Shown: one piece after another, positions 13,606 to 63,845 of the stretch
Layout of the letters: each line of letters begins with the position of its first letter
Position numbering within the stretch: the stretch's first letter is position 1
Source: Sinorhizobium saheli
Lineage (GTDB): Bacteria; Pseudomonadota; Alphaproteobacteria; Rhizobiales; Rhizobiaceae
DNA length: 64,000 nt
NCBI RefSeq assembly: GCF_001651875.1
Contig: NZ_LNQB01000067.1
Location: 1-64,000 of the forward strand
Reading direction: 5' to 3'
Notes under the pieces: generated by a model
Seen by the model: only the letters and a program-made list of their open reading frames with translations
What the model was told of the DNA's origin: nothing
Database searches by the model: none
Translations under genes and position numbers: made by a program

Positions 13606-13618
13606 GTGGAACATCAAT

Positions 13619-14713: not shown

Positions 14714-16044
14714 CCGGAGCACGGCAGATCGATATCGAGGCGACCGGGCGGGACGCGACCACCGCGATCCAGTCGGCGATCGACGAGATATCCGCCCACG
14801 GCGGCGGCCGCGTGTCGCTCCTTGCCGGCGAGCATGTGGCGGGCGGGCTCATCCTCAGGGGCGGCGTCGAGCTCAATCTCGGCCAAGGCGCGCTGCTGCG
14901 CCCCATTCCCGATTACGAGGCCTATCGCGAGACGACCGTCCGCGTCATCGCCGAAAAGTCAAACCGGGGCATGATCGTCGCGCGCGACGCCGAGAACGTG
15001 CGGATCACCGGCCCGGGCCGGATCGAGTCGGGCGGCGAGCATTTCATCACCGGCGACGATGCGAGCGTCGGCACCTTCGTGCCGGCAGAGTTCCGGCCGC
15101 GGGTCATCGTCCTTGAAGGATGCCGCAACCTCGTCCTCGACGGGTTTCGGGTCACCGGCTCGCCGATGTGGACCCTGCACCTCGCCGATTGCGAGGACAT
15201 CGTCATCCGCAATGTCACGATCGAAAACGACCGGCGGCTGCCGAACACGGACGGCATGGTGCTCGATGCCTGCCGCCGCGTGCTGGTCGAGGACTGCGCC
15301 ATCTCGACCGCCGACGACGGCATCTGCCTCAAGACCAGCGCCGGGCCCGACGGCAAGGCGATCGGGACCTGCGAGGATGTCACCGTCCGCCGCGCTTCCG
15401 TCTCGAGCCTGAGCTGCGCGCTGAAACTCGGGACGGAATCCTTCGGCGATTTCAACAATATCGTCTTCGAGGACTGCAGGGTGAGCCGCTCCAATCGCGG
15501 TCTCGGCCTCTTCTCGCGCGATGGCGGCCACATGAGAAACATCCGTTTCTCGCGGATCGAGGTCGATTGCCGCGAGACGCCCGACGGCTTCTGGGGCTCG
15601 GGCGAAGCGCTGACCGTGACCGTCGTCGACAGGCGCCCCGAACGGAGCGCCGGCGCGGTGGAGAACCTTCTGGTGGAGGAGATCACCGGCCGCATGGAGG
15701 GGGCGATCAATCTCGTCTGCGCGTCTCCTGCCGGCATTCGCAACGTCGCGTTCCGCGCGATCACGCTTGCGCAGGCGCCCGGACCGCTCGGCACCGGCCT
15801 GCGCTACGATCTGAGGCCGACCTTTGCCGATATCGCCCCGAGCGCCGAGTCGGAAGGCCGGGCCAATGCCTGGACGCGGGGCGCCGACGGCAGGATCGTC
15901 GGGCTTCTCGATTATCCGGGCGGCATGCCGGCGATCTTTTTGAAGGGCGTCGGGGACTTGTCCGCGCGGGACGTGGCGGTCAAGCGTCCGGCAATCCTGC
16001 CGGACGGGTGGAATGCGAAGGATATCGTCGAAGAATTGACCTGA
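14710..16044 (+). CDS. GH28 polygalacturonase-like protein
   Basis: A 444-residue right-handed beta-helix protein of the GH28 (polygalacturonase) type. Two catalytic motifs are visible: NTDG near residue 179 and ADDGICLK near 200. The usual Gly-His-Gly and Arg-Ile-Lys segments are altered: the corresponding stretch reads LSCALKLGTES, a pattern also seen in distant GH28 groups acting on rhamnogalacturonan. It has no signal peptide and is presumably an intracellular exo-acting enzyme. The GTG start overlaps the stop of the GH105 gene by 4 nt, so translation is coupled. Confidence 0.8.
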   Translation: MTGARQIDIEATGRDATTAIQSAIDEISAHGGGRVSLLAGEHVAGGLILRGGVELNLGQGALLRPIPDYEAYRETTVRVIAEKSNRGMIVARDAENVRITGPGRIESGGEHFITGDDASVGTFVPAEFRPRVIVLEGCRNLVLDGFRVTGSPMWTLHLADCEDIVIRNVTIENDRRLPNTDGMVLDACRRVLVEDCAISTADDGICLKTSAGPDGKAIGTCEDVTVRRASVSSLSCALKLGTESFGDFNNIVFEDCRVSRSNRGLGLFSRDGGHMRNIRFSRIEVDCRETPDGFWGSGEALTVTVVDRRPERSAGAVENLLVEEITGRMEGAINLVCASPAGIRNVAFRAITLAQAPGPLGTGLRYDLRPTFADIAPSAESEGRANAWTRGADGRIVGLLDYPGGMPAIFLKGVGDLSARDVAVKRPAILPDGWNAKDIVEELT

Positions 16045-16057
16045 CGGGAGCAGGGCG

Positions 16058-17155
<1,098 letters not shown>

Positions 17156-48252: not shown

Positions 48253-48376
48253 GGTTCCCCGCTTCATTGCACCGACGGCCAGCGCGGGATGGGCATTCAC
48301 GCGACTCGATCGGGAACAGACGAGGAACATATCAGCCCGTCCCGCCGTTGCAAATCAGGCGAGGTCCGGCAACTGA

Positions 48377-48478
48377 AGCATTTTGCAGCCAGGTGGAATC
48401 ACCTGGCGTCGCGCAAATGCGGCAGAAACAAGCAGATAGAGCGGTGGCGCGAACGCGATTGAGCGCGTCCCGCTCTAT
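48377..48478 (-). repeat. RIME-like repeat, copy 6 (inverted)
   Basis: About 102 bp in reverse orientation. Its second hairpin reads GCCAGGTG-GAAT-CACCTGGC: relative to copy 1 (GTCAGGTG...CACCTGAC) both arms changed together, keeping the pairing. Its edge CTCTAT supplies the TAG stop of the minus-strand gene at 48475. Confidence 0.8.
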
Positions 48479-49377
48479 CGCACCGGAGGCTCGAAGGTCA
48501 GGCCCCCAGCCTTGAAAATCGCGGCGATCCGGCCGTCGGCGAGCGCCGCGGCGATCGCGTCGTCGACCGCATAGGCGAGGTCCTTGTGCTGGAAGTTCAC
48601 GCCGACGCCCAAGGTCCACTTGCCGCGCGCCAGACCGACGAGCGGCGGCTCGTGAAGAGCGAGCGCCGCCTCCGGATGGGCGGCAATGCCCGCCTGAAGC
48701 TCTGCCCGCGGGCCCATGGCGGCCATGGTCTCCCCGCTCGCGAGCGCGTCCACGGCAAGCGCGGTGCTGCGATAGCGGCGGATCTTGTCGACCGGGCCGA
48801 GAAGTGACGTCAGATGGAAGTCGGAGATCGAGTCGTTTTCCACCGCCACCGTGTCGAAGCGGAAGAAGGGCGGTGTGGGCGCCTCCTCGGGATAATCGGT
48901 CCTGTCATAGGCAATGGCGATCGCCTCCCGGGCATATTGGCCGGTGAAGGTCACCTGCTCGATCCGGCAGGCATAGTCGCTGTCATAGGGGACATGCAGC
49001 ATCACGTCGCTGACATGGCCGCCGATCACGGCGCCCTTCCAGACATAGTTGAGGAGGTCGGCGTCGAGCGTCTCGCCCGCCTGGACGAGGCGGAAACGGG
49101 CCTCGACCCCGAGTGCGGCGGCAATGAGCCGGCCGATCTCCACATCGACCCCGCGCGCACGCCCCTTCTCCTCATAGGACCAGGGCGCGAAATCCTCGTA
49201 GACCGCGAACTCGATCCAGCCCTCCTCGACGATCCGGTCGAAGGAGCGGCCGACGTCCTGGGGAAAGGTGTTCTGCGGCTTCGGCTGCGGCACGTGGCCC
49301 TCGCATCGTGCGAAGGCCACGGCCGGCAGGACGGCGCAAGCCATGGCTGCGAGCGCGATCGCCCGGGGAGCGCCCAT
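48475..49377 (-). CDS. MoxJ/XoxJ-like periplasmic binding protein of a quinoprotein dehydrogenase
   Basis: A 300-residue family-3 type solute-binding protein with a signal peptide ending near AFA. It belongs by its layout (FAVYEDFAPWSYEEKGRARGVDVEIGRLIAAAL; GAVIGGHVSDVMLHVPYDSDYACRIEQV) to the binding-protein-like accessory proteins found with PQQ dehydrogenases. XoxJ is thought to bind and help load or activate the dehydrogenase rather than feed a transporter. It follows a PedF-like cytochrome gene by 3 nt, so the two are cotranscribed. The stop TAG comes from the RIME-like repeat. Confidence 0.85.
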   Translation of the reverse strand: MGAPRAIALAAMACAVLPAVAFARCEGHVPQPKPQNTFPQDVGRSFDRIVEEGWIEFAVYEDFAPWSYEEKGRARGVDVEIGRLIAAALGVEARFRLVQAGETLDADLLNYVWKGAVIGGHVSDVMLHVPYDSDYACRIEQVTFTGQYAREAIAIAYDRTDYPEEAPTPPFFRFDTVAVENDSISDFHLTSLLGPVDKIRRYRSTALAVDALASGETMAAMGPRAELQAGIAAHPEAALALHEPPLVGLARGKWTLGVGVNFQHKDLAYAVDDAIAAALADGRIAAIFKAGGLTFEPPVR

Positions 49378-49380
49378 GGC

Positions 49381-50067
49381 TCACTCCGTCGCAGACAGCC
49401 CGACGGTCAGGATCTCGCTGGCCTTCTTCCAGCTTTCCGGAGCGTCGGTCAGGATTCTCGCCGCCTCATAGGCGACGCTGTCGGCAACCGGCGCGCCGGA
49501 GGCCGTCTTCACTTCGGCGGCGATCTTCTCGAGTTCGGCCTTGAGCGCCTTCGGATCGGCGACCTTGGCCCCGGCGAGTTCGTTGCGAACCTCGTGCAGC
49601 CGGCCCGCATGCGCATCGAGCGCCCCGTCTTCCGGCCGGGTTTCGATATAGGTGCGGATCGCCCAGGCCGCCTTCTGGCCGAGAATGTCACCGAAGGCCG
49701 GCATCTTGGTGGTGCCGTCCTGGGTGTAGCCGTGGCGGAAGCGCTCGACGAACCATTCGTCACCGTATTCGGCCGCTTCCAGCAGCCGGAGGTCGGGGGC
49801 CAATCCCCCGGAGACGGCGCCGAGCCCGTGACAGCGGGCGCAGTTCTGGTTGAAACCGGAAGCGCCGATCTCGACGGCCTTCAGCCAGACGTCGCGTCCG
49901 ACCTTGTCCTCGCGATAGGGGTTTTCGGTAAGCCATTCCTCACCGACATCCGGCAGGGCGTCGGTGTTGACCGGTTGCGGCGCCACGTCGCCATGCGCGA
50001 CGACGACCGTCGCCGTCGCGATCAGCAGAAGCGCCGCAACCCCGGCGCGGATACGGTTCCTGGACAT
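49381..50067 (-). CDS. c-type cytochrome, PedF-like partner of PQQ alcohol dehydrogenase
   Basis: A 228-residue periplasmic monohaem cytochrome c. A signal peptide ends near AHG; the haem site is C76-A-R-C79-H80 and the probable axial Met is M122 (TTKMPAFGD). The N-terminal segment NPYREDKVGRDVWLKAVEIGASGFNQNCARCHG is typical of the c550 (PedF/ExaB-like) proteins that take electrons from PQQ dehydrogenases. A helical C-terminal extension of about 90 residues follows. Its promoter region holds two regulon dyads. The start MSRNRIR has GGGAGGAA upstream. Confidence 0.88.
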   Translation of the reverse strand: MSRNRIRAGVAALLLIATATVVVAHGDVAPQPVNTDALPDVGEEWLTENPYREDKVGRDVWLKAVEIGASGFNQNCARCHGLGAVSGGLAPDLRLLEAAEYGDEWFVERFRHGYTQDGTTKMPAFGDILGQKAAWAIRTYIETRPEDGALDAHAGRLHEVRNELAGAKVADPKALKAELEKIAAEVKTASGAPVADSVAYEAARILTDAPESWKKASEILTVGLSATE

Positions 50068-50135
50068 TCTTTCCTCCCTGGCAAGACTGCGTTCGGACCC
50101 GTTTCTTACAGCCGCCCGCGGTGGCCGCGGTATTC

Positions 50136-50169
50136 GACCTAGGTCGCGGCCCGGCATGGCACCTTGGTC
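50136..50169. promoter_or_regulatory. Two regulon dyads at the cytochrome/ABC-binding-protein promoter
   Basis: GACCTAGGTC (50136-50145, perfect palindrome) and CACCTTGGTC (50160-50169), centres 24 bp apart, between divergent genes. The second is inside GCACCTTGGTCGT, identical to the inverse of a 13-mer upstream of the alcohol dehydrogenase gene (34619-34631). Confidence 0.65.
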
Positions 50170-50222
50170 GTATTCCGCTCCTCCCTGCTCGCGCCTTAAC
50201 TTCGAGCGAGGAGGAGTTCCCC

Positions 50223-51410
50223 ATGCCGAAGATCCGCGTCAAACGGACAATGTCCGCGTGCCTGCTGGCGGCGCTTGCCGGCGCCGCCGGCCCGGCCCGG
50301 GCGGACGTCACCGTCGCCATGACCTATCTGCGTCAGGAGGTGAAGGCGCCGCCGGTGCTTTCGAACCTCGACCCTGTCCCGGAGGATCTCGGTATCGCCG
50401 GGGCCGAGCTCGGACTCTCCGATACCGAGACGACCGGCAGCTTCCTCGGCCACCATTATGGGCTGAAGGTGGTTTCCGTCGCGCCCGGAGGCGACCTCAC
50501 CGCGGCCGCCAGGGCCGCGCTCGCGGCATCGCCCGTGCTTTTTGTCGACGCGCCCGCCGAAAGCGTGCTGGCCGTCGCCGATCTGCCTGAGGCGAAGGGC
50601 GCGCTGATCGTCAATGTCGGCTCCGGCGAGCGCCGGCTGCGCGACGCCGATTGCCGCGGCAATCTCCTCCACACCATTCCCGAGGACGCGATGCGCGCCG
50701 AGGCGCTGATGCAGGTGTTGAGGGCGCGGCGCTGGACGCGCACCGTCATGATCGTCGGCCCGCGGCCGGAGGACGCGGCATTCGCCGCCACGTTGCGCGC
50801 CGCGGCGGCGAAGTTCGGCGTCGATATCCTGGCGGAAAAGGCCTGGACCTTCGACACCGACCTCAGGCGGATGGCGAGCAAGGAGGTGCCGCTCTTCACT
50901 CAGGACCTGCCCGAGCACGACGTGCTGCTGGTCGCCGACGAGGCCGACGACTTCGCCCGCTATGTTGCCAACAACACCTGGCTGGCGCGCCCGATCGCCG
51001 GCTCCGACGGCTTGCGCGGCGACGGCTGGGCGCCGGTGCTCGAGCAATGGGGCGCCGTGCAGTTGCAGAACCGCTTCGAGAGCGCGGCAAAACGCGAGAT
51101 GCGGCCGCGCGACTATGCCGCCTGGACGGCGCTGCGCACCGTCGGCGAGGCGGTGACGCGGATCAACACGGCCGACCCGGAGAAACTCAGGGCTTTCATC
51201 CTGTCGGACGGCTTCGCGCTCGACGGCTTCAAGGGTCGCCCGCTCAGCTACCGGCGCTGGAATGGGCAGCTGCGCCAGCCGATGCCGGTCGTCAATGCCC
51301 GCGCGCTCGTGGAGCTGACGCCGCTCGACGGCTACCTGCATCCGCAAAACGAGATGGATACGCTCGGGCTCGACCGCCCGGAAAGCGCCTGCACCGCATT
51401 CGGAGACTGA
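50223..51410 (+). CDS. PQQ-system-associated ABC substrate-binding protein
   Basis: A 395-residue periplasmic protein with a signal peptide ending near ARA. It has the bilobed branched-chain-amino-acid-binding-like fold and the features (AMTYLRQEVKAPPVLSNLD; LDGYLHPQNEMDTLGL at the C-terminus) of the binding proteins found next to PQQ alcohol dehydrogenase systems. Ligand unknown. The gene is divergent from the cytochrome gene, with GAGGAG upstream of its ATG. The ABC ATPase and permease usually found in these clusters are not in this window. Confidence 0.85.
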   Translation: MPKIRVKRTMSACLLAALAGAAGPARADVTVAMTYLRQEVKAPPVLSNLDPVPEDLGIAGAELGLSDTETTGSFLGHHYGLKVVSVAPGGDLTAAARAALAASPVLFVDAPAESVLAVADLPEAKGALIVNVGSGERRLRDADCRGNLLHTIPEDAMRAEALMQVLRARRWTRTVMIVGPRPEDAAFAATLRAAAAKFGVDILAEKAWTFDTDLRRMASKEVPLFTQDLPEHDVLLVADEADDFARYVANNTWLARPIAGSDGLRGDGWAPVLEQWGAVQLQNRFESAAKREMRPRDYAAWTALRTVGEAVTRINTADPEKLRAFILSDGFALDGFKGRPLSYRRWNGQLRQPMPVVNARALVELTPLDGYLHPQNEMDTLGLDRPESACTAFGD

Positions 51411-51411
51411 C

Positions 51412-52380
51412 ATGAGACGGCTTCATTCCTTTCTGATTGCGCTGCCGATCGGCGCGCTTCCCCTTGCCGCGACGGCCGGCGAAATCTGGGTCACCAACGA
51501 GAAGGACGCCACGATCTCCGTCATCGATACCGCGACCCTCGAAGTCGTCCGCACGATCGCGACCGGCGAGCGCCCCCGCGGCATCACCTTCAACTCCGAC
51601 CATTCGCGCGTCTATATCTGCGCGTCCGACAGCGATGCCGTGGAGGTGATGGACCCGGCGTCGGGCGAGATCCTTCACGAGCTGCCTTCGGGCGAGGATC
51701 CGGAACAGTTCGTGCTCGCCCCCGACGACAAGCACCTGTGGATCGCCAACGAGGACGATGCGGTTACCACGGTGGTCGACGTCGACGCGCGCGAGGTCGT
51801 GGCGCAGATCAATGTCGGCATCGAGCCGGAGGGCATGGCCGTTTCGGCGGACGGCAAGCTCGTCGTGACGACCTCCGAGACGACGAACATGGCCCATTGG
51901 ATCGACACGGCGACGATGAAGATCGTCGCCAATACGCTCGTCGACAGCCGGCCGCGCCACGCGGAGTTCACGAGCGACGGCAAGGAGCTCTGGGTCTCCT
52001 CCGAGATCGGCGGCACGGTGACGGTGTTCGACGTCGCGACCCGGTCCGAAAAGGCCAAGATCCGCTTCGCCCTCACCGGCGTCAGGGACGACCTGATCCA
52101 GCCCGTCGGCTTCGAATTCACGCCCGACGGCACGACCGCCTTCATCGCGCTCGGTCCGGCAAACCACGTCGCCGTGGTCGACATGAAGACCTTCGAGGTC
52201 GAGACATACATCCTGGTCGGCCGGCGCGTCTGGCACCTGGCGTTCTCGCCAGATCACAGCCAGCTGTTCACGACGAACGGCATCTCGGGAGATGTCACGG
52301 TGGTCGATGTCGCCTCGCGCGAGGCGCTGAAATCGATCAAGGTCGGCCGCTTCCCGTGGGGCGCAGCGACGCGGCCGTAG
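51412..52380 (+). CDS. PQQ-associated YVTN beta-propeller protein
   Basis: A 322-residue secreted seven-bladed propeller with YVTN-type repeats (EIWVTNEKDATISVIDTATLEVVRTI; HLWIANEDDAVTTVVDVDAREVV; ELWVSSEIGGTVTVFDVATR). A signal peptide ends near TAG. Proteins of this kind regularly accompany PQQ-dependent alcohol catabolism; their role is not defined. One nt separates it from the binding-protein gene. It converges with the repeat-protein gene, 13 nt away. Confidence 0.87.
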   Translation: MRRLHSFLIALPIGALPLAATAGEIWVTNEKDATISVIDTATLEVVRTIATGERPRGITFNSDHSRVYICASDSDAVEVMDPASGEILHELPSGEDPEQFVLAPDDKHLWIANEDDAVTTVVDVDAREVVAQINVGIEPEGMAVSADGKLVVTTSETTNMAHWIDTATMKIVANTLVDSRPRHAEFTSDGKELWVSSEIGGTVTVFDVATRSEKAKIRFALTGVRDDLIQPVGFEFTPDGTTAFIALGPANHVAVVDMKTFEVETYILVGRRVWHLAFSPDHSQLFTTNGISGDVTVVDVASREALKSIKVGRFPWGAATRP

Positions 52381-52393
52381 GCCAAGGCGCGGA

Positions 52394-55300
52394 TTAGACC
52401 GCCAGATAGGCCGCGATGACCGCTGCGATCTGATCCGAATTCAGCGCGTCCATCTGCGTCTCCATAAGCGCGTTCAGCTGGTCGCTGGAGAGGCTCGCAA
52501 TGTCGTCGGTGGAGAGCCCCGCCACGCCGCTCGAACTGAACGCCGAGACGTCTTCCGTCGAAAAGGTCGCAAGGTCGTCCGCGCTCAGGGCCGCGACTTG
52601 CGCCGAGGTCATCGCACTGACCTGAATTGGCGTCAAAGCCTCGGCCTGGGCCGTCGTCAGGGCGGCGATGGCGTTGACGCTCAACCCCGAGATCGCGCTC
52701 GTGCTCAGGGCGACGATATGATCGGTGGAGAGCTGCGCGACGTCGTCGGTGCCGAGGGCTGCGGCCTGTATGGCGTTCAGCGCACCGACCTGCGCGATGG
52801 AGAGCGCGGCGATCTGGCTGGTGCTCATCGCCAGGACCTGCGTGTAGCCGAGCGATCCGACCTGGCTCGTCGTGAGCGCCCCGATCGCAAGCGTGGAAAG
52901 CGCTGCGACAAAATCGGTGGACAGTCCCTTGATCGCAGCCGCGTTGATCGACGCGAGTTCCCCGGTCGAGAATGTCGCGAGATCCTCGGTGCCCAGGCCC
53001 GCAAGCCCGTTCGCGCTCAAGGCGGAAATCTGGCCGGTGGAAAGCGCATCGATCTGCGCGGGGCTGAGCGCACCAACCTGGGCGCTCACCAGGCCCGCAA
53101 CGCTGGCCGTGCCCAGCGCCGCGATTTCGCCGGTGGTGAGTGCCGCGATGAAGGCGGTGGAAAGCCCCTTGATGGCGGCGGAACTGATCGCCGCGAGCTC
53201 CTCGGCCGAGAACCCGTCCAGGTCCTCGGCGCTCAGGCCCGACAGCGCATCGGCCGTCAGGGCGCCAATCTGGCCTGTGGAGAATGCTTCGATCTGCTCG
53301 GCGCTCAAGGAACCGGCCTGGCCACTCGTCAGGCCCGCCAGGCCGGCCGCGCTCAGCGCCGCGATCTGGTCCGTCGAGAGCGCCGCCAGGTCGTCCGTGC
53401 CCAGCACCGCCACCTGCCTGGAGCCGAAGGCGCCGATCTGCCCGGTCGAAAGCGCCTCGATGTGGTCCGCGCTCAAGGCGCCGATCTGGGCGGTGGAAAG
53501 GCCGGAAATGCCGCTCGTGCCGAGCGCCGCGACCTGCTCGATGGAAAGCGCGGCGATCGTATCGGTGGACAGTCCCGCGATGGCGCTGGCGCTGATCGCC
53601 GCGATTTCCGCCGTCGAGAACGTCGCGAGGTCGTCCATGCCGAGAACGGCGATCTGCGTCGAACTCAGCGCGGCAATCTGCGAAGAGGTGAAGGCCTCGA
53701 TCTGGTCGGTGCTCAACGCATTGAGCTGGGCGGTGGAAAGACCGGCGACGCCGGCGGTCCCAAAGGCCGCGATCTGCACCGCCGAAAGCGCCGCCATCGT
53801 ATCGGTGGACAATCCCGCGACCGCATTCGAGCCGATCGCTGCGATATCCGCCGTCGAGAAGGTCGCCAGATCGTCCGTGCTCAGCGCCGCAATCTGCGTC
53901 GAGCGCATGGCCGCGACCTGCGCGGGGGTCAGGGCCTCGAGCTGATCGGCGTTCAGGGCGTCGATCTGGGCCGTGGAAAGCCCGGCGATGCCGGCCGTGC
54001 CCAGCGCGGCGACCTGGTCTGCCGAAAGCGCTGCTATGTCGGCAGTGCCGAGCGCTGCTACCTGCCTAGAGCCGAGAGCGCCGACCTGCCCGGTAGACAA
54101 GGCCTCGATCTGCTCGATGCTCAAGGCATCGATCTGGGCCGTGGAGAGACCGGCGATGCCGGCCGTGCTCAATGCCGCGAGCTGGCCCGGCGAAAGCGCC
54201 GCCAGCGTATCGGTCGACAGCCCCGCGACGGCGCTCGAACCGATCGCCGCGATATCCGCGGTCGAGAAGGCCTCGAGGTCGGCTGTGGTGAGCGCCGCGA
54301 TCTGCGTCGAGCTCATGGCCGCGACCTGCGCAGGGGTCAGGGCCTCGAGCTGATCGCCGTTCAAGGCGGCGATCTGGGCCATGGAAAGGCCCGCGACGGC
54401 GGCCGTGTTCAGCGCCGCAATCTGGCCCGCGGAGAGAGCCGCCACGTCGCCGGTGCCGAGCGCCGCCACTTGCTTGGAGCCGAGAGCGCCGACCTGCCAG
54501 GTCGACAGGGCCTCGATCTGATCGAGGCTCAACGCATCGATCTGGGCCGTGGAAAGACCGGCGATGCCGGCCGTGCTCAGGGCCGCGATCTGCTCCGCCG
54601 AAAGCGCCGCCAGCGTATCGGTGGACAATCCTGCGACGGCGCTCGAACCGATCGCGGCAATGTCCGCGGTGGAGAAGGCTGCCAGATCGTCGGTGCTCAG
54701 CGCCGCGATCTGCGCCGAACTCATAACCGCGACCTGGTCGGGGGTCAGTGCCTCGAGCTGCTCGGCAGTCAAGGCGTCGATCTGGGCGGCGGAGAGCGCG
54801 GCAATGGCGGCCGTGCTCAGCGCGGCAACCTGATCGGCCGAGAGCGCGGCGATGGCATCGGTGCCGAGCACCGCCGCCTGCCGGGAGCCGAGAGCGCCGA
54901 GCTGTGCGCTCGACAAGGCCTCGAACTGATCGGTGCTCAAGGCCGCGATCTGGGCGCTGGAAAGGCCGGCGACGCCCGCGGTGCTCAAGGCGGCGATCTG
55001 ATCGGAGGAAAGCGCGGCTATCGCGTCGGTCGACAGCCCCGCGACGGCGCTCGAACCGATCGCCGCGATCTCCGCGGTGGTGAAGGCCGCAATGTCGCCG
55101 GTGCTGAGGACGGCGATCTGCCGGGAGCCGAGGGCGCCGATCTGGTCCGCCGTCAGGGCCTCGACCTGGCCCGCGGAGAGAACCGCGACGTCCTCGGTGC
55201 CGAGACCCGCAATGCCCGCCGCGCTCAAGGCGGCGATCTGATCGGTCGAGAGCGTCGCGATGTCAGCGGTGCTCAAGGCGGCGACCTGCCCGGAGGTGAG

Positions 55301-58300
55301 CGCCCGCACTTGGCCGCTGGTCAAGGCTGCGACCTGACCGGTGCTCATGGCATCGACCTGCCGGGTGCTCAGCGCCGCGACGGCGGCAGTGCCCAATGCG
55401 GCGATCTGCTCGGTGGAAAAGGCAGCGATGACATCCGTTGCCAGGCCCGCGACGAGGTCGGCGCCAATCGCGGCGATGTCCTCGATCGACAATGCCCCTA
55501 TGTCTTCCGTCCCGAGCGCGGAGGCTTGTCGCGAGGTCAACGCGCCGACCTGGCTGGCGGAGAGGGCCGCAATCTGGTCCGAACTCAGGGCAGCGATCTG
55601 CCTGGTGCCGAGCCCGGCGACGCCGGCGGTGCTGAGCGAATCGATCTGCTCGGTCGAGAGCGAAGCGACGGCGGCCGTGGAGAGACCGGCAATGGCGCCC
55701 GCGGCGATCGCCGCGATGTCCTTCGTCGAGAACACGGCGATGTCTTCGCTTCCGAGAACCGAGAGCTGGGCCGAGGTGAGAGCGGCGACTTGCGAAGGCG
55801 TCAGCGCCTCCATCTGGTCGGTGCTCAAGGCGGCGATCTGCCTGGTGCTCAAGCCCGCAATCGCCGCGGTGCTGAGTGTGGCGATCTGCCCGGTCGAAAG
55901 GGCCGCCACGTCGCTCGTGCCGAGCGCGGCGACTTGCGCCGCACTCAGCGCCGCAAGCTGCTTGCTGCTCAAGGCGGAAAGCTGGCTGGAACTCAGCGCA
56001 TTGACCTGCGCGCTCGTCAGGCCCGCGATGCCGGCGGTGCTCAGCGCCGCGACCTGTCCGGTCGACAGCGCTGCGACGACGGCCGTCGACAGGCTCGATA
56101 TGGCGCCCGCGCCGATCGCCGCGACGTCCTTGGTCGAGAAGGCCGCGATGTCCTCCGTTCCAAGCGCCGCGAGCTGGGTCGAACTCAGCGCCGCGACCTG
56201 GACCGTGGTCAGCGCCGCGAGCTGGTCGGTGCCGAGCGCAACGATCTGCTTGCTCGTCAAGCCCGCGAGGCCGGCGGTGCTCAGCGCGGCGACCTGCCGG
56301 GTCGACAGGGCCGCCAGATCGCTCGTGCCGAGCGCGGCGACTTGCACCGAACTCAGCGCAGCAACCTGCCCGGTGCCGAGCGCGGCGAGCTGGCCCGTCC
56401 CGAGCGCGGCGACCTGACCGGTGCTGAGGCCGGTGATGCCGGCCGTGCCGAGGCTCACGATCTGCCCGGTCGAGAGCGAAGCGAGAACGGACGTGGTGAG
56501 ACCCGCTATTGCGCTCGAGCCGAGCGCGGCGATGTCTTGCGTCGAGAAGACCGCCAGGTCTTCCGTGCCCAGGGCCGCAAGCTGCGTCGAGCTCAGAACG
56601 CCGATCTGGGCCGAGCTCAGCGCCTCCATCTGCGCGGTGCTCAGGGCAACGATCTGCCTGGTGCCGAGCCCCGTGATCGCGGCCTTGCTCAGCGCAACGA
56701 TCTGGCCGGACGAGAACGCCGCGAGATCCTGAGCCTCCAGGGCAGCGACCTGATCGGCGCTCAGCATGGCAACCTGCTTCGTGCCGAGTGCCGCGATCTG
56801 GTCGGAGGACAGGGCCTCCATCTGATCAGACGTCAGGCCCTTGAGGCCGGCTGCGCCGAGGACGGCGATCTGGTCGGAGGAGAGGGCCGCGACCTTCTCG
56901 GTGCCGAGGGCGGCAACCTGCGTCGCCTTGAGCACGGCGACCTGCCTGGTGCTCAAGGCAGCGACCTGATCGGCACTGAGCGCGTCGATCTGGTCGGTGG
57001 TCAATCCCGCGACCGCGGCCGTGCCAAGCGCGGCGATCTGGTCTGAGGAGAGGGTCGAGATGACATCCGTCGACAACCCCGCAATACCGCCCGCACCGAT
57101 CGCTGCGATATCGGCACTGGAGAGCGCCGCTATATCCTCCTCGCTCAGGGCCGAAAGCTGCGCGGAGCTGAGAACAGCCACCTGGGCGGTCGAAAGGGCG
57201 GCGATCTGATCAGTGGACAAAGCGGCGATCTGATCGGCGCTGAGGCCGGTGACGCCCTTGGTGCTCAAGGCGGCGATCTGTGCCGTGGAGAGCGCTTCGA
57301 CGAGGTCGGTCGTCAGCCCCGAAATGGCGCCCGCGCCGATCGCCGCCATTTCGGCGCTGGAGAACGTTGCCACGTCGTCCGCATGGAAGATCGCCAGCTG
57401 CTCGGCGCGAAGGGCGGCGATCTGGGTCGAGGAAAGCGCCTCGACCTGGGCCGTGGACAAGGCGTCGATCTGCTCGGAGCCGAGGCCAAGGATGCCTTTC
57501 GTGCTCAGTGCCGCGACCTGGGCGGTCGAGAACGCGGCGACATTCTCCGCGCTCAAAGCGGCGACCTGCACCGAACCCAGCACCCGGACCTGCATCGTGG
57601 ACAGGGCGGCGGCCTGGCCGGTGGAGAGGGCGGCGAGCTGTGCGGTCGTCAGGCTCGCGACCGCACTCGTGCCGAGGGCGGCAAGCTGGGCCGTGGAAAG
57701 CGCGGCGATCGCCTCCGTGCTGAAGCCGGTCACGGCCTGGCTGGTGATTGCGGCGATATCGGCGGTCGAGAACGTTGCTATGCCTTCGGTCGCCAGGGCT
57801 TCGATCTGCCGCGAGCTCAGCGCCTTCACCTGCGAGACGGACAGCGCCTCGGCCTGGCCGGCCGACAGGGCGGCGATCTGCAGGCTCGTCAGGTTCGCGA
57901 TCGCACTCGTGCCCAGCGCCGCGACCTGGTCGGTGGAGAGGGATGCGATGACATCGGTGGTCAGCCCCGGCGCCGCCTTGTTGCCGATCGCCGCGATTTC
58001 GCCGGTCGAGAATGTCGCGATGGCGTCCGTTCCGAGCGCGGCAACCTGCACTGCGCTCAGCACCTTCACCTGCGCGGCAGAAAGGGCTTCCGCCTGCGTG
58101 GGCGACAGCGCGGCGATCTGGTCGGTCGTCAGGCCCGGGATTCCCTTGGCGCTCAGCGCTGCGATCTGATCGGTGGACAGGGCCGCGACATTCTGCGTGC
58201 CGAGGGCCGCGACTTGCGCCGCACTGAATGTCCTGAGCTGTGCCGCGGAAAGGGCCGCGGCCTGGTCGGTCGACAGGGCGGCGATCTGCGCGGCCGTCAG

Positions 58301-59473
58301 GCTCGAAACCGCACTGGTGCTGAGCGCCGCCACCTGCTCGGCGGAAAGCGCGGAGATGGCCTCGGTGCCGAGACCCTTGACGGCCAGGTTGGTGATCGCG
58401 GCGATGTCGGCGGTCGAGAAGGTCGCGATATCCTCCGCCCCGAGCGCTGCGATCTGCCTCAGGCTCAGCGCCCTCACCTGTGCGGCGGACAATGCCTCGA
58501 CCTGGTCGGTCGACAGGGCGGCGACCTGTGCCGTCGTCAGGCTCGAGACCGCACTCGTGCTGAACGCGGCAACCTGGGCGGTGGAAAGCGCGGCGATGGC
58601 GCCGCTCGCCAGGCCCGATACGGCCTTGTTGCTGATCGCCGCGATTTCGGAGACTGAGAACCGCTCCATGGCGTCGGGATCGAGCGCCCCGAGCTGCGCC
58701 GCGCTCAGCGCCTTCACCTGCGCGACCGACAGCGCCTCGACCTGATCGGCCGACAGGGCAGCGACCATGTCCGTCGAAAGGCCCGCGATCGCCAGGGTGC
58801 TCAGTGCGGCAATCTGGTCGGTCGAAAGCGCGGCGATGCCGCCCGCGCCCAGCGCCCCGACTTGCGACCCCTTCAGCGCGCCGATCTGGACCGTCGTCAG
58901 GGCGGCGATCTGGTCGGCGGACAAGGCGGCGATCTGCGCGGTCGAAAGGCCTGCGATCGCGCGCGTGCTGAAGGCCGCAACCTGGGCGGAAGAAAGGGAG
59001 GCGACGACATCCGCGGCAAGCCCCGTTACGGCCTTTCCATCGATGGCCGCGATGTCGGCGGTAGAGAAGGCCGCGAGATCCTCGTCGCTCAAGACAGAAA
59101 GCTGAGCCGCGTTGAGGACGGCGACCTGGGAGGCACTGAACGCCTCCGCCTGCTCCGTCGTCAATCCGTCGATCTGGGTGGTGGTGAGCGCCGCAACCTG
59201 GTTCGTGCCCAGGCTTTCGATGTCACTCTTGTCAAGCACGGCCAACTGATCCAGCGTCAGGCCGACGATTGCGGTCTGGGAGATCGCCCGCAACTGGCGG
59301 GAGCTGAGGATATCGACATCCTCCGTGTCCAAAGCCGCGATCTGCGCCGAAGAGAGCGCCTTGATCTGGCTGGTGGAAAGCGACGCCACGTCTTCCGTCG
59401 TCCAGGCAGAAACGCTCGCCGTCGATAGCGACCTGATCTGGCTGACACTGAGGGAAGGAATGGTCGTGCTCAT
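52394..59473 (-). CDS. Giant octapeptide-repeat protein of unknown function
   Basis: A 2,359-residue protein, almost entirely made of an octad of the type A-A-[LFI]-[SGT]-[TSA]-x-[QDE]-[IVL] (for example AALSTDQI), of the order of 280 units without a break in register. No signal peptide, membrane segment, RTX motif or anchor is visible at either end (start MSTTIPSLSVSQIRSLS; end QIAAVIAAYLAV). Ser/Thr-x-x-Gln/Asp/Glu before a hydrophobic trio resembles a helix N-cap, so a solenoid of short helices is possible; a beta-solenoid is the alternative. Cys is absent and Trp very rare. Similar repeats occur in large proteobacterial proteins sometimes labelled adhesins or haem-utilisation proteins, but no function is established. 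The start has AAGGG eight bases upstream. Confidence 0.85.
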   Translation of the reverse strand: MSTTIPSLSVSQIRSLSTASVSAWTTEDVASLSTSQIKALSSAQIAALDTEDVDILSSRQLRAISQTAIVGLTLDQLAVLDKSDIESLGTNQVAALTTTQIDGLTTEQAEAFSASQVAVLNAAQLSVLSDEDLAAFSTADIAAIDGKAVTGLAADVVASLSSAQVAAFSTRAIAGLSTAQIAALSADQIAALTTVQIGALKGSQVGALGAGGIAALSTDQIAALSTLAIAGLSTDMVAALSADQVEALSVAQVKALSAAQLGALDPDAMERFSVSEIAAISNKAVSGLASGAIAALSTAQVAAFSTSAVSSLTTAQVAALSTDQVEALSAAQVRALSLRQIAALGAEDIATFSTADIAAITNLAVKGLGTEAISALSAEQVAALSTSAVSSLTAAQIAALSTDQAAALSAAQLRTFSAAQVAALGTQNVAALSTDQIAALSAKGIPGLTTDQIAALSPTQAEALSAAQVKVLSAVQVAALGTDAIATFSTGEIAAIGNKAAPGLTTDVIASLSTDQVAALGTSAIANLTSLQIAALSAGQAEALSVSQVKALSSRQIEALATEGIATFSTADIAAITSQAVTGFSTEAIAALSTAQLAALGTSAVASLTTAQLAALSTGQAAALSTMQVRVLGSVQVAALSAENVAAFSTAQVAALSTKGILGLGSEQIDALSTAQVEALSSTQIAALRAEQLAIFHADDVATFSSAEMAAIGAGAISGLTTDLVEALSTAQIAALSTKGVTGLSADQIAALSTDQIAALSTAQVAVLSSAQLSALSEEDIAALSSADIAAIGAGGIAGLSTDVISTLSSDQIAALGTAAVAGLTTDQIDALSADQVAALSTRQVAVLKATQVAALGTEKVAALSSDQIAVLGAAGLKGLTSDQMEALSSDQIAALGTKQVAMLSADQVAALEAQDLAAFSSGQIVALSKAAITGLGTRQIVALSTAQMEALSSAQIGVLSSTQLAALGTEDLAVFSTQDIAALGSSAIAGLTTSVLASLSTGQIVSLGTAGITGLSTGQVAALGTGQLAALGTGQVAALSSVQVAALGTSDLAALSTRQVAALSTAGLAGLTSKQIVALGTDQLAALTTVQVAALSSTQLAALGTEDIAAFSTKDVAAIGAGAISSLSTAVVAALSTGQVAALSTAGIAGLTSAQVNALSSSQLSALSSKQLAALSAAQVAALGTSDVAALSTGQIATLSTAAIAGLSTRQIAALSTDQMEALTPSQVAALTSAQLSVLGSEDIAVFSTKDIAAIAAGAIAGLSTAAVASLSTEQIDSLSTAGVAGLGTRQIAALSSDQIAALSASQVGALTSRQASALGTEDIGALSIEDIAAIGADLVAGLATDVIAAFSTEQIAALGTAAVAALSTRQVDAMSTGQVAALTSGQVRALTSGQVAALSTADIATLSTDQIAALSAAGIAGLGTEDVAVLSAGQVEALTADQIGALGSRQIAVLSTGDIAAFTTAEIAAIGSSAVAGLSTDAIAALSSDQIAALSTAGVAGLSSAQIAALSTDQFEALSSAQLGALGSRQAAVLGTDAIAALSADQVAALSTAAIAALSAAQIDALTAEQLEALTPDQVAVMSSAQIAALSTDDLAAFSTADIAAIGSSAVAGLSTDTLAALSAEQIAALSTAGIAGLSTAQIDALSLDQIEALSTWQVGALGSKQVAALGTGDVAALSAGQIAALNTAAVAGLSMAQIAALNGDQLEALTPAQVAAMSSTQIAALTTADLEAFSTADIAAIGSSAVAGLSTDTLAALSPGQLAALSTAGIAGLSTAQIDALSIEQIEALSTGQVGALGSRQVAALGTADIAALSADQVAALGTAGIAGLSTAQIDALNADQLEALTPAQVAAMRSTQIAALSTDDLATFSTADIAAIGSNAVAGLSTDTMAALSAVQIAAFGTAGVAGLSTAQLNALSTDQIEAFTSSQIAALSSTQIAVLGMDDLATFSTAEIAAISASAIAGLSTDTIAALSIEQVAALGTSGISGLSTAQIGALSADHIEALSTGQIGAFGSRQVAVLGTDDLAALSTDQIAALSAAGLAGLTSGQAGSLSAEQIEAFSTGQIGALTADALSGLSAEDLDGFSAEELAAISSAAIKGLSTAFIAALTTGEIAALGTASVAGLVSAQVGALSPAQIDALSTGQISALSANGLAGLGTEDLATFSTGELASINAAAIKGLSTDFVAALSTLAIGALTTSQVGSLGYTQVLAMSTSQIAALSIAQVGALNAIQAAALGTDDVAQLSTDHIVALSTSAISGLSVNAIAALTTAQAEALTPIQVSAMTSAQVAALSADDLATFSTEDVSAFSSSGVAGLSTDDIASLSSDQLNALMETQMDALNSDQIAAVIAAYLAV
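52440..59440 (-). repeat. 24-bp coding tandem repeat (octapeptide)
   Basis: The gene is a degenerate tandem array with a 24-nt period on the minus strand, about 7 kb long. The array keeps its reading frame throughout and also keeps long false frames open on the other strand. Confidence 0.9.
53390..55010 (-). repeat. Higher-order 408-bp (17-octad) repeat
   Basis: Near-identical blocks recur every 408 bp in this part: CCGCGACCTGCGCGGGGGTC begins at 53911 and its copy (one base changed) at 54319. At protein level the unit carries the marker FSTADIAAIGSSAVAGLSTD. Similar but more diverged superunits occupy the rest of the gene. Confidence 0.8.
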
Positions 59474-59617
59474 GCGTGAACCCTTGAGGCTTATAGCGAA
59501 TCGCCTGTCCAACCCGCCGCCGGGAGGGCGCGCGGCCGTACGCTACCATCGATAGGGGGACTGGCTTGCCTGAACCTGAAGTTGGCACGCGAAAGCAGAT
59601 TCTTTTCAAGGCGTTAA

Positions 59618-59637
59618 AGCCCGGTGCCGTCCGGGCT
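59618..59637. terminator. Hairpin after the MHS transporter gene
   Basis: AGCCCGG, loop TGCCGT, CCGGGCT: a 7-bp stem, about 90 nt downstream of the minus-strand transporter gene, followed on that strand by TTTAACGCC. It lies in the 252-bp gap before the repeat-protein gene. Confidence 0.5.
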
Positions 59638-59725
59638 TGCGATCGACCGGGGGATTCCTGGCGCGAGCGTCTCGGCTTCGCGCCTGCGCGGCAGCCGTTT
59701 TCGGCCGCCGCGAGCGGCGTGACCG

Positions 59726-61054
59726 TTACGATCCGGCTCTCGGCTCGACCGGCTGCCATATGCTTATCCTGCGGGTCTCGGGCATCAGGTACAGCGCGAG
59801 CAGGAAACAAACGGCAGGAACGGCGATCGGATAGATCAGCGCGTAGCCGACGCTGTTGGTGGCCGCGAAGGCCGCCGAGGTGACGAAGGGCACCAAGCCG
59901 CCGCCCCAGCCGTTGCCGATGTGATACGGCACCGACACCGACGTGTAGCGAATCCTGCCGGGAAAATATTCCGCCAGGAACGCCCCGACCGGGCCATAGA
60001 CCATCCCGACATAGCAGACGAGGATGAAGATGATGAAGATCGCGGTCGGATAATTGATGTTGTCGGGCTGCGTGACCGTTCCGAGCCACAGATACAGCGG
60101 GTAATAGGTGATCGCGGCGAGCAACATGCCGCTGAGGATTACCGGCTTGCGGCCGATGATGTCCGACAACCAGCCGAAGAAGATCAGGCTCGGTGTCGCA
60201 AGGAGCAGCGCCGCTCCGACGATATAGGCCGAGCTCAGCGCATCGACCTTGGAGACCTGCTGCAGAAAGTACAGGGCCCAGAACTGGCCGCTGTACCAGA
60301 CAACGCCTTGCCCGATCAGCACGATGGTGGCGATCCCGACATATTTCGCGTTGGAGCTGAGGAACGCCTCCCTCCACGGATTCCGGGTCATCTGCCCCTT
60401 CGCCCTGATCTCCTGGAAGATCGGCGTCTCCTGGAGCTGGAGCCGGATGTATATCGCGATGGCGACCAGCAGGAACGACATGAGGAAGGGAACGCGCCAC
60501 GCCCATGCCTCGAAGACCTCATTGCCGAAATAGGTGCGCGTCGCGATGATCACGCCGAGCGACACCACGATCCCGAGCGTCGGCGAGGTCTGGAGCCAGC
60601 CGGTATAATAGCCGCGGCGTTCGTCGGGCACATGCTCGGCAACGTAGGTGATGGCGCCGCCATACTCGCCGCCCAGGCACAGGCCCTGGATCATCCTGAG
60701 GCCGAAGAGCAGGAACGCCGCGGTCAGGCCGATCGCCTCGTAGGATGGGATCAGGCCGATCGCGCCGGTGCCGAGGCCCATTCCGCTGAGCGTCATGAGG
60801 AACGTGTATTTACGGCCGACCCGGTCGCCCATCCAGCCGAACAGGAACGCGCCCAGCGGGCGGATCAGGAAGCCCGCGGTGAAGAGCGCGATGGTACTCA
60901 GCAGCGCCGCGACCGGGTGCGACGGTTCAAAGAACTTGACCGACAGGACCGCGGCCAGGCTCCCGAAGATATAAAAGTCATACCATTCAATGATATTTCC
61001 CACCGAGGCGGCAACGATCACGCGGCGGAAATCCGTCGGGACTTGAAGAGCCAT
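59726..61054 (-). CDS. MFS transporter, metabolite:H+ symporter (MHS) family
   Basis: A 442-residue inner-membrane carrier with 12 predicted helices. The first helix motif VGNIIEWYDFYIFG and the loop GWMGDRVGRKYTFL, plus RMIQGLCLGGEYGGA, are diagnostic of the MHS family (citrate, alpha-ketoglutarate, proline/betaine and shikimate symporters). The substrate cannot be read from sequence. A clear GGGAGGAACC precedes the start. It follows the oxidoreductase gene on the same strand after about 140 nt. Confidence 0.88.
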   Translation of the reverse strand: MALQVPTDFRRVIVAASVGNIIEWYDFYIFGSLAAVLSVKFFEPSHPVAALLSTIALFTAGFLIRPLGAFLFGWMGDRVGRKYTFLMTLSGMGLGTGAIGLIPSYEAIGLTAAFLLFGLRMIQGLCLGGEYGGAITYVAEHVPDERRGYYTGWLQTSPTLGIVVSLGVIIATRTYFGNEVFEAWAWRVPFLMSFLLVAIAIYIRLQLQETPIFQEIRAKGQMTRNPWREAFLSSNAKYVGIATIVLIGQGVVWYSGQFWALYFLQQVSKVDALSSAYIVGAALLLATPSLIFFGWLSDIIGRKPVILSGMLLAAITYYPLYLWLGTVTQPDNINYPTAIFIIFILVCYVGMVYGPVGAFLAEYFPGRIRYTSVSVPYHIGNGWGGGLVPFVTSAAFAATNSVGYALIYPIAVPAVCFLLALYLMPETRRISIWQPVEPRAGS

Positions 61055-61192
61055 GTTGGTTCCTCCCGTTTTAGGACATGGCCTGCGAAATCCTGCACTC
61101 TAGCACGAAATTCCCCGATCACGAACCGGCGCCCCCCGGCGAGTGCCGCAGGGTCAACGGAAAGCGCACCTCTTCTTTTTCTAAAGCGGACG

Positions 61193-62212
61193 TTACGGCC
61201 GTTGCGGCTGGCCGCTTTCGGCGGCGGCGAGGATCGCCGCAATGAGGCGATGGACCTTCAGCGCCTCGCGCCCGTCCACGCGCGGCGCATGTCCGTGCTC
61301 GATCGCATCGAGGAAATCGGCGAGCACCGCACGGTGATGGTGATGCGGAAAGGCCATGGGGTCGGCGCCGGCGCCGCCCGCCGCTTCGTCTTCGATCGAG
61401 ATTTCGCTTCCATCATGGAAGGAAGCGGCAAGGCTTCGCCCGCCGAGGCGCGCCATGCCGCGCGTGCCGATGATGTCGATCTCGTCCGGATAGCCGGGAT
61501 AGGCGCAGGTGGTGGCGCTCACCGTGCCGATCGCGGCATTTGCGAAGCGGATCGCCGCCATCGCCAGATCCTCGGTCTCCATGCGGTGCACCTTGCTGGT
61601 CGTCGCATAGGCGTTGACCTCCTCGGGAAGCCCGGCGAGCGAGATCAGGAGGTCGAGCGTATGGATCGCCTGGGTCAGCAGCACGCCGCCGCCATCGCGG
61701 GCACGCGTGCCGCGACCCGGCTGATCGTAATAGCTTTGCGGCCGCCAGTTGTGCAGGCGGGCCGAGGCGCTGACGATTTCGCCGAGCCGCCCCTCGTCGA
61801 TGAGCTGCGCAAGGGCCCGGCTTACCGGCCGGAACCGGTGCTGCAGAACGGTGCCAAGCTTGACGCCGGCGCGCTCCGCCGTCTCGACCAGAGCCTCCAC
61901 CCGCTCGCCGGTAATCTCCAGCGGCTTTTCGAGAAGCACGTGCTTGCCCGCTTCGGCAGCGCGCCTCACGAGCTCGAGATGCGTATTCGGCGGCGTCAGT
62001 ACCAGGACGGCCGCGATCGACCGGTCATCGAAGATCGTTTCGGCCGCGTCGCAGACGGCGAAGCCATAGGTGTCGGAAAATGCGCGCCGCCGCGCCGCGG
62101 TCGGACTGAAGGCGGCGGCGACCTCGACCCTGTCCTCAAGATCGAGCAGGCTTTTGGCATGCGGCGCCGCTGCCATGCCGAGCCCGATCACGCCGACGCG
62201 CAGCCTTGCCAT
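61193..62212 (-). CDS. Gfo/Idh/MocA-family oxidoreductase
   Basis: A 339-residue NAD(P)-dependent dehydrogenase: N-terminal Rossmann fold (RVGVIGLGMAAAPHAKSL), the family motif LLEKPLEITGERVE with the conserved EKP near residue 95, and a C-terminal alpha/beta substrate domain with GGGVLLTQAIHTLDLL. Substrate likely a sugar or uronate derivative by context: it is divergent from uxaC. The ATG follows GGAGG by seven bases. Confidence 0.88.
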   Translation of the reverse strand: MARLRVGVIGLGMAAAPHAKSLLDLEDRVEVAAAFSPTAARRRAFSDTYGFAVCDAAETIFDDRSIAAVLVLTPPNTHLELVRRAAEAGKHVLLEKPLEITGERVEALVETAERAGVKLGTVLQHRFRPVSRALAQLIDEGRLGEIVSASARLHNWRPQSYYDQPGRGTRARDGGGVLLTQAIHTLDLLISLAGLPEEVNAYATTSKVHRMETEDLAMAAIRFANAAIGTVSATTCAYPGYPDEIDIIGTRGMARLGGRSLAASFHDGSEISIEDEAAGGAGADPMAFPHHHHRAVLADFLDAIEHGHAPRVDGREALKVHRLIAAILAAAESGQPQRP

Positions 62213-62352
62213 CTCAGAGCCTCCGATCGAAAGCGCCCGGCAGGCGCAAAGACGGGTGCGCGCCGGTCAGTCTCGCATTGCGCATGGGTTTCCTCCCCGT
62301 TCTCCTCATCTCTTGCCTACCCCGAGTGGCCGGCATCGCGCAAGAAATTCGT

Positions 62353-62377
62353 CATACAACATCATCAATTTTGTATG
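62353..62377. promoter_or_regulatory. Inverted repeat and promoter region of uxaC
   Basis: CATACAA, 11 bases, TTGTATG: perfect 7-bp arms in the only AT-rich part of the divergent gap. TTGACA (62378-62383) follows at once and could be the -35 of the uxaC operon. Suggests a GntR- or LacI-like repressor site overlapping the promoter; the regulator is not in the window. Confidence 0.5.
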
Positions 62378-62435
62378 TTGACATTATATTTTACAAGCCG
62401 TAGCCATAACGGACCTGTTGGAGGAGCGGGCTAGA

Positions 62436-63845
62436 ATGGCGGGACTGATCGATCCAGATCTTCTGTTTCCGGGGGACGAGCGCACGCGTGCGGTGGCGCG
62501 AAACCTCTATACCGAAGTGAAAGGGCTGCCGATCGTGAGCCCGCACGGGCACACCGAGCCACGCTGGTATGCGCTCGACGAGCCGTTCCCCGATCCCGCG
62601 CAACTCCTGATCGTGCCGGACCATTATGTCTTCCGCATGCTGTTCAGCCAGGGCGTGAGGCTCGAAGACCTCGGCGTCCCGACGCTCGACGGTTCGCCGG
62701 TCGAGACGGATGGCCGTACGATCTGGCGGCGCTTCTGCGAAAATTATCATCTCTTCCGCGGGACGCCGACGCGGCTGTGGTTCGACTATACGCTTTCGAA
62801 TCTCTTCGGCGTCGACGAACTGCCCTCGGCTGGCAACTCCGACCGGCTCTACGACCGGATTGGCGAATGCCTGGCGCGCCCGGACTATCGCCCCCGCGCG
62901 CTCTACGAGCGCTTCAACATAGAGGTGATCTCCACGACCGACGGCGCCCTGGATCCGTTGGCCTGGCACGCGAAGATCCGCGACAGCGGCTGGAAGGGGC
63001 GGGTCGTCCCGGCCTACCGGCCGGACGCGGTGGTCGATCCGGACTTCGAGGGCTTTTCAGCCAATCTCGACAGGCTTGGCGAGATTACCGGCGCCGACAC
63101 CGGAAGCTGGTCGGGCTATCTGGATGCGCACCGTGCCCGGCGGGCCTATTTCAAGGAGTTCGGCGCGACCTCCAGCGACCACGGCCATGCCACGGCCGAT
63201 ACCGCCAATCTGGCGAAAGCGGAGGCCGCGGCCCTGTTCGACAAGGTGCGCTCCGGCAAGGCGGACGCCAGCGAGCGGCGGCTGTTCCGGGCCCAGATGC
63301 TGACGGAAATGGCGAAGATGAGCCTGGACGACGGGCTCGTGCTGCAGATTCATCCGGGTTCCTTCCGCAACCACGCGCCCGCCGTCATGGCGAAGTTCGG
63401 TCGCGACAAGGGCTTCGATATCCCGACCCGCACCGATTATGTCACCGCGCTGAAGCCGCTGCTCGACGCCGTCGGCCTCGAGCGCGACCTGACCGTCATC
63501 CTCTTCACCCTGGACGAGACGAGCTATGCGCGGGAGCTGGCGCCGCTCGCCGGCGTCTACCCGGCCCTGAAGCTCGGGCCCGCCTGGTGGTTCCACGACA
63601 GTCCGGAAGGCATGCGCCGCTTCCGCGAGATGACCACCGAGACGGCCGGCTTCTACAACACCGTCGGCTTCAACGACGACACCCGGGCCTTTCCGTCGAT
63701 CCCCGCGCGCCACGACATAGCCCGCCGGGTCGACTGTGCATTTCTCGCGCGACTTGTCGCGGAACACCGCCTGCGAGAGGACGAGGCGTACGAGCTCGCG
63801 CGGGAACTGGCCTACGGCCTCGCAAAGAAGGCTTACAAGCTCTGA
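62436..63845 (+). CDS. uxaC: Uronate isomerase
   Basis: A 469-residue member of the amidohydrolase-fold uronate isomerases, converting D-glucuronate to D-fructuronate and D-galacturonate to D-tagaturonate in the cytoplasm. Metal-ligand motif H37-G-H39 (SPHGHTEP), FRMLFSQG and the C-terminal GFNDDTRAFPSIPARHD block are characteristic. GGAGGAG lies nine bases before the ATG; a TTG at 62418 is in frame but lacks a site. Galacturonate released by the pectin enzymes at 11-16 kb would be a substrate. A TRAP binding-protein gene follows after 31 nt. Confidence 0.93.
   Translation: MAGLIDPDLLFPGDERTRAVARNLYTEVKGLPIVSPHGHTEPRWYALDEPFPDPAQLLIVPDHYVFRMLFSQGVRLEDLGVPTLDGSPVETDGRTIWRRFCENYHLFRGTPTRLWFDYTLSNLFGVDELPSAGNSDRLYDRIGECLARPDYRPRALYERFNIEVISTTDGALDPLAWHAKIRDSGWKGRVVPAYRPDAVVDPDFEGFSANLDRLGEITGADTGSWSGYLDAHRARRAYFKEFGATSSDHGHATADTANLAKAEAAALFDKVRSGKADASERRLFRAQMLTEMAKMSLDDGLVLQIHPGSFRNHAPAVMAKFGRDKGFDIPTRTDYVTALKPLLDAVGLERDLTVILFTLDETSYARELAPLAGVYPALKLGPAWWFHDSPEGMRRFREMTTETAGFYNTVGFNDDTRAFPSIPARHDIARRVDCAFLARLVAEHRLREDEAYELARELAYGLAKKAYKL

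Follow-up and report, generated by a model that had tools for sequence, protein, structure and literature searches.

An end-to-end octad-repeat protein of Sinorhizobium saheli with conserved length, a predicted helical solenoid fold and a possible glycosyltransferase partner

The analysed stretch of Sinorhizobium saheli DNA (64,000 nucleotides of contig NZ_LNQB01000067.1, here called the window) carries the gene of a protein that is built of octapeptide repeats in a single register, has near-constant length within Sinorhizobium and is predicted to fold as a helical solenoid (Table 1). The reading that we favour, and hold to be likely rather than certain, is that of an exported, densely O-glycosylated rod with a dedicated GT41 enzyme and type I secretion; its glycosylation, the identity of the sugar, its export and its role at the surface we infer.

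Table 1. Features of the octad-repeat gene and its product (positions are those of the window)
Feature	Position	Strand	Basis
ALTTAQ octapeptide-repeat protein, 2,359 aa, 295 octads	52394..59473	(-)	PF20080 1450 bits, register, conservation
N-terminal 360 aa, predicted helical solenoid	58394..59473	(-)	AlphaFold pLDDT 93.9
C-terminal 360 aa, predicted helical solenoid	52397..53476	(-)	AlphaFold pLDDT 93.4
C-terminal peptide shared with homologues (ends DQIAAVIAAYLAV), putative export signal	52397..52438	(-)	homolog alignment

The gene runs on the minus strand from an ATG at 59473 to a stop codon that ends at 52394; the initial annotation had these coordinates right and gave no strand. It had counted about 280 octads, which has to be corrected to 295 (2359/8), and was right to call them uninterrupted and in register: one register extends over all 295, with zero shifts. 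Counted from the serine, the octad consensus is S-T-x-Q-I-A-A-L. Position 5 is I/V/L/A/M/F in 295/295 octads and position 4 is a glutamine in 160/295. The final octad ends one residue early, and the other 294 all have a hydrophobic residue at position 8, a leucine in 237 of them. Self-identity is 0.35-0.39 at lags 8, 16, 24, 32, 40 and 48, compared to 0.04-0.12 at all remaining lags (maximum 49). Longer-range similarity within the array peaks at 17, 27 and 10 octads and the array has therefore probably grown through larger duplications; the homologue of R. anhuiense is longer by 408 amino acids, which is exactly three 17-octad units. At one Niveispirillum locus (L145 of G194, 11171-17110), matches to PF20080 are spaced 576 bases (24 octads) apart and score the same or almost the same; this array appears to have been amplified recently, unlike the old, fixed arrays of Sinorhizobium.

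The minus-strand gene frame is the sole stop-free frame of the window gene, as it is of all three homologues tested, and the plus-strand frames across the gene have 3, 24 and 59 stops, with more in the homologues; long plus-strand ORFs (for example 52598-57046) accompany the 24-base period. GC content by codon position is 0.65/0.55/0.86 and dN/dS in the gene frame is 0.17-0.26 among the window gene and its orthologues in two Sinorhizobium congeners. An antisense or chance ORF is ruled out by the open frame in the homologues, the codon-position GC and dN/dS. Repeat number, when compared among relatives, is near-constant in Sinorhizobium: the orthologues of three species have 2359, 2358 and 2358 amino acids, are 0.71-0.83 identical and differ by one single-residue indel. 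A second paralogue has 1687 amino acids in the same three species and aligns without gaps (identity 0.60-0.89). Over both paralogue sets of these species, dN/dS is 0.11-0.32; a shift control of these values is valid for all pairs except those with the window gene, where the one-residue indel makes it meaningless. These data demonstrate selection on the repeat gene, and the near-gapless orthologues and dN/dS values below 1 support a fixed length, in line with the selection on a long molecule that had been proposed from the window sequence. The frameshifted relics that had been envisaged in related strains do not occur among the Sinorhizobium orthologues, which are intact; decay of the repeat is rejected for this clade by the intact orthologues, dN/dS and the single one-residue indel. 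Broken copies are found elsewhere: the ALTTAQ copy on a Pseudomonas asturiensis plasmid is split over three ORFs, the Pseudoroseomonas copy likewise, and the copy of genome G219 is interrupted, partly by runs of N.

In Pfam, the protein matches PF20080 (ALTTAQ repeat) with 1450.2 bits over 94 stretches (gathering cut-off 26.4); the profile search that had been proposed thus identifies the octad as a described repeat, to which no known function is attached. CAAP1 (42.7 bits) and Sigma70_r4_2 (30.1 bits) also pass their whole-protein cut-offs, with no single stretch passing, and we take both as spurious sums across the repeat. None of the five Pfam families that score up to E = 1 is an ice-nucleation family, and Pfam and NCBIfam scans find neither RTX repeats nor an FrpC module in the window protein. 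Plasmid relatives are annotated as 'hypothetical protein', 'heme utilization protein' or 'ICE nucleation protein'; the latter two names find no support in the Pfam matches of the window protein. Titles and abstract starts of open-licence papers describe no function for the ALTTAQ octad, a weak absence given this limited coverage of the literature.

AlphaFold was run on the first and the last 360 residues with five sequences per alignment, and the resulting models are confident on average (Table 1), with the proviso that five-row alignments of a strong repeat can yield over-confident models. Per 45 octads, the N- and C-terminal models contain 42 and 43 helices of at least four residues, mostly of four to six residues with few merged into longer ones. 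Nearly every octad of the end regions is thus modelled as a helix, as expected from the continuous solenoid of short helices that the initial annotation had suggested, and the alternative that it gave, a beta-solenoid, is at odds with these models. We conclude that a helical solenoid is well predicted. The helices begin with octad position 2, directly after the serine, which would then serve as their N-cap; this agrees with the S/T-x-x-Q capping box that had been read from the octad. The last two helices of the C-terminal model are longer ones (model residues 331-344 and 347-359), and the first 110 residues of the protein are conserved among homologues. No specific fold stands out in a comparison with the PDB. 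Of eight proteins analysed for the period of glycine at octad position 7, four (those of the window, R. anhuiense, G001 and Cereibacter) have their peak at 3.39-3.40 octads and the other four at 2.12, 2.43, 8.70 and 2.45, and none of the four features tested in the Pseudomonas ALTTAQ protein peaks near 3.4. One idea is that a solenoid turn takes about 3.4 octads, a value that equals 17/5, so that duplication of a 17-octad unit is inseparable from geometry, except perhaps in Cereibacter.

The octad gene is accessory: the N-terminus of the window protein is matched in 4/12 genomes of the genus, its own included, and in 0/8 others of the order (one sample), and PF20080 is found at E <= 1e-8 in 4/190 genomes of a class sample and 16/398 of a phylum sample, again including its own. 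Four genomes of the phylum sample (G702, G416, G451 and G462) have ALTTAQ open frames of 5,333 to 5,692 residues, more than twice the size of the window gene, and two of them (G416, G451) have several ALTTAQ frames each. In the window, the gene lies between an MFS transporter gene and the genes of a PQQ alcohol-dehydrogenase system; the latter are downstream (49381-52380) and include cytochrome c-550 PedF (TIGR04494, 194 bits), a PQQ_ABC_bind substrate-binding protein (TIGR03863, 458 bits) and a YncE-like beta-propeller. A polygalacturonase PglB-like gene (14710-16044; NF051861, 715 bits) and a glucuronate isomerase gene (62418-63845; PF02614, 248 bits) perhaps serve the use of plant cell-wall sugars. 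The first 74-84 bases of the window (1-84) have 20 further copies of 95-100% identity in the genome, another two places share 41 bases and many copies are at contig ends; this repeat probably broke the assembly at this edge.

None of the nine neighbouring ORFs scanned (46183-63845) is a GT41, GLF or secretion gene. S. americanum and genome G011 have the gene order ALTTAQ-1687, GT41, a 417-aa protein (PF12248), GLF (UDP-galactopyranose mutase) and ALTTAQ-2358. In the S. saheli genome, it is the paralogue that retains GT41, the 417-aa protein and GLF beside it, on a contig other than that of the window; this GT41 gene is the only one of the genome and belongs to the ALTTAQ-linked subfamily (1178.6 bits).

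Among 151 genomes of the family, 20 match the ALTTAQ N-terminal profile (E <= 1e-18; genes too divergent for this profile would escape the count) and 38 have any GT41; both are present in 15 (Fisher 5.5e-7, uncorrected for relatedness). With the cluster GT41 as query, 13 of the 151 genomes match with at least 1003 bits and every other match has 363 bits or less. All 13 are among the 20 ALTTAQ genomes (hypergeometric 4e-14, with relatedness ignored), none of the 131 genomes without a match to the ALTTAQ profile has the subfamily, and in 13/13 the ALTTAQ, GT41 and GLF genes are together in one locus, in several gene orders. The subfamily is missing in seven of the 20 ALTTAQ genomes, two of which have only other GT41s. 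In the class sample, GT41 is absent altogether from G160 and from the surroundings of the ALTTAQ gene in G059; glycosylation would therefore not be general. In a quick tree of 82 GT41 rows, made without bootstrap, 30 rows form one clade (SH-aLRT 99) with members from Rhizobiaceae, Acetobacteraceae, Niveispirillum, Cereibacter, Pseudomonas and two further genomes; ALTTAQ octads are present in every genome or record from which these 30 rows were taken (two rows labelled 'other', L052, are the same place as the Niveispirillum locus L145). With the exception of L210, every ALTTAQ-linked GT41 that we examined, whether alpha- or gammaproteobacterial, is inside this clade. The link to the enzyme is strong for the family and indirect for the window copy. 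On the Pseudoroseomonas plasmid (L176, 8956-9930), an annotated UDP-glucuronic acid decarboxylase gene occupies the place next to GT41 that GLF has in rhizobia, a hint at lineage-dependent sugar donor genes.

If GT41 acts on the octad, Ser/Thr residues that are not needed for capping should track the enzyme. With octads placed via positions 4-8 only, Ser/Thr at position 1, the N-cap, differs little between family rows with and without GT41 (0.72-0.89 and 0.66-0.84). At position 2, Ser/Thr is 0.50-0.86 in 15 genomes with GT41 (of 18 at hand) versus 0.24-0.53 in eight without (Mann-Whitney 8e-6 on genome means), a contrast that has no phylogenetic significance because about two independent losses of GT41 on the tree underlie it; proline at position 2 goes in the opposite direction (p 0.02). 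The comparison leaves out three loci with fragmentary or contig-cut arrays (L142, L143 and L144 of G222, G325 and G219), and its tree has 29 rows, all from within the family. In proteins without GT41, position 2 is taken by alanine, plus proline in 6/9 proteins, as in the PDB entry 9zem discussed below. The two groups overlap at Shinella (0.50, with GT41 elsewhere in the genome) and at L148 of G313 (0.66 without the enzyme), and L216 has a linked GT41 and a position-2 value of 0.36 (0.79 at position 3). A less careful earlier count had given 0.82 versus 0.53 (21 proteins, of which two are duplicates, versus 11), with octads placed by all eight positions of the window matrix, which can favour Ser/Thr.

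With respect to export, the initial annotation had seen no signal in the protein. A Sec signal is indeed not apparent by eye, and the conserved C-terminal peptide (Table 1) indicates that the statement may be too strong. This peptide is conserved in many homologues, is absent from several non-rhizobial ones, and is kept in 2/8 aligned homologues even though a Ser/Thr/Ala-rich linker replaces the last octads; that it is an export signal is our guess. ABC and HlyD genes of type I systems are present in the stretch of eight of 22 non-rhizobial loci, and HlyD alone in one. The eight are two Pseudomonas plasmids, plasmid pA of Cereibacter sphaeroides 2.4.1, Pseudoroseomonas, Niveispirillum, a Desulfuromonadaceae genome, G702 and G426. 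The 22 loci were chosen as holding ALTTAQ or GT41, and since some were picked for GT41 and several are cut by contig ends, this count is not a rate. HlyD is found in one of 16 GT41-linked rhizobial stretches (G253, with its ABC gene) and in none of the 15 other rhizobial loci, thus in 1/31 rhizobial loci overall. The Pseudomonas ALTTAQ gene is near TolC/HlyD/ABC genes and the C-terminal module of its product matches FrpC (PDB 6sjw) with E 5.7e-38. The ALTTAQ protein of the Desulfuromonadaceae has, by eye, an FrpC-like end, for which Pfam gives EF-hand matches below threshold and nothing else. The S. saheli genome has four PrtD-type transporters above cut-off, and G313 is the only one of nine genomes searched that has none above it.

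The mechanism that we propose would start with synthesis of the octad protein in the cytoplasm, where its 295 octads, each a short helix plus a turn, would make up a rod-shaped superhelical solenoid. The dedicated GT41 O-glycosyltransferase, in S. saheli the one encoded beside the paralogue, would add sugars to Ser/Thr at the helix starts, and in this family the sugar nucleotide would come from GLF. The glycosylated protein would be exported by a type I secretion system and may then make up a long extracellular fibre or coat.

GT41 enzymes are known to act in the cytoplasm, and with orthologues of fixed length, no Sec signal apparent by eye, secretion genes rarely near rhizobial loci and the cognate GT41 missing in 7/20 ALTTAQ genomes, the protein could also be pictured as a cytoplasmic scaffold or ruler of fixed length that organises or measures something there, with a GT41 mark that is regulatory or a GT41 that modifies something else; we regard this as unlikely in view of the ABC and HlyD genes at 8/22 non-rhizobial loci, the FrpC-type module in one non-rhizobial ALTTAQ protein and the C-terminal peptide that is detached from the repeat in two homologues. 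Less probable still is an exported rod that carries no modification, with the GT41-GLF pair decorating other surface material as a mere neighbour: 7/20 genomes have the octad protein without the GT41 subfamily, and in S. saheli the window copy and GT41 are on different contigs, but the subfamily never occurs without ALTTAQ among the 151 genomes, it is adjacent in 13/13 with varied gene order, and octad position 2 tracks its presence. We give next to no credence to a beta-solenoid or ice-binding repeat protein, for which the annotation of relatives ('ICE nucleation protein', 'heme utilization protein') is the only argument; both readings are rejected on the Pfam scan, which returns PF20080 and no ice-nucleation family, and on the confident helical models. 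A functionless, neutral product of repeat expansion is equally improbable and already contradicted in the Sinorhizobium clade by dN/dS (0.17-0.26) and by one single-residue indel in 2,358 residues between species, even if the peaks in similarity at 17, 27 and 10 octads point to duplications in the past.

We return to the exported, O-glycosylated rod. Tentatively, and with more doubt than for the rod itself, it may belong to a so far undescribed glycoprotein export system, in which octad-solenoid rods are secreted by type I systems and carry up to hundreds of O-linked sugars at their helix starts, added by a dedicated GT41 clade: galactofuranose via GLF in rhizobia and other sugars elsewhere. 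If true, a repeat family without known function would obtain a testable role and a whole clade of bacterial OGT-like enzymes a named substrate, and an acceptor array would become available in which the Ser/Thr sites, near-identical and some 200 in number, share one helix position. For rhizobia this would mean one more long glycosylated protein, secreted or at the surface, with a possible part in their life on roots.

The octad is shared with PF20080, and the Pfam scan supplies the name of the repeat alone; new here are the strict conservation of length, the linkage to GT41 and GLF and the type I genes nearby. Among 12 phmmer matches in the PDB, the best is HeliScrew4 (9zem, 120 aa; E 3.7e-17, 107 residues ungapped), followed by leucine-rich-repeat proteins at E 1.4e-5 or weaker. 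HeliScrew4, which we guess from its name to be a designed protein, has the same octad as the window protein and differs by frequent proline at position 2, where the window protein has Thr/Ser, and by its 15 octads' worth of residues versus 295; the comparison is by name and sequence. FrpC is exported by type I secretion. The Pseudomonas ALTTAQ protein resembles this type (PDB 6sjw) in its C-terminal domain, whereas the window protein has no such domain. The glycosyltransferase HMW1C of Haemophilus is a GT41 enzyme. Excerpts of PMC2877744 and PMC3983070 describe it as dedicated to HMW1, a large exported adhesin, and the system differs from our proposal by an Asn-linked sugar, two-partner secretion and another substrate. 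FlmG of Caulobacter is described in excerpts of PMC7591256 as a cytoplasmic O-glycosyltransferase, termed OGT, that acts on an exported filament protein, although its substrate is flagellin and its sugar pseudaminic acid.
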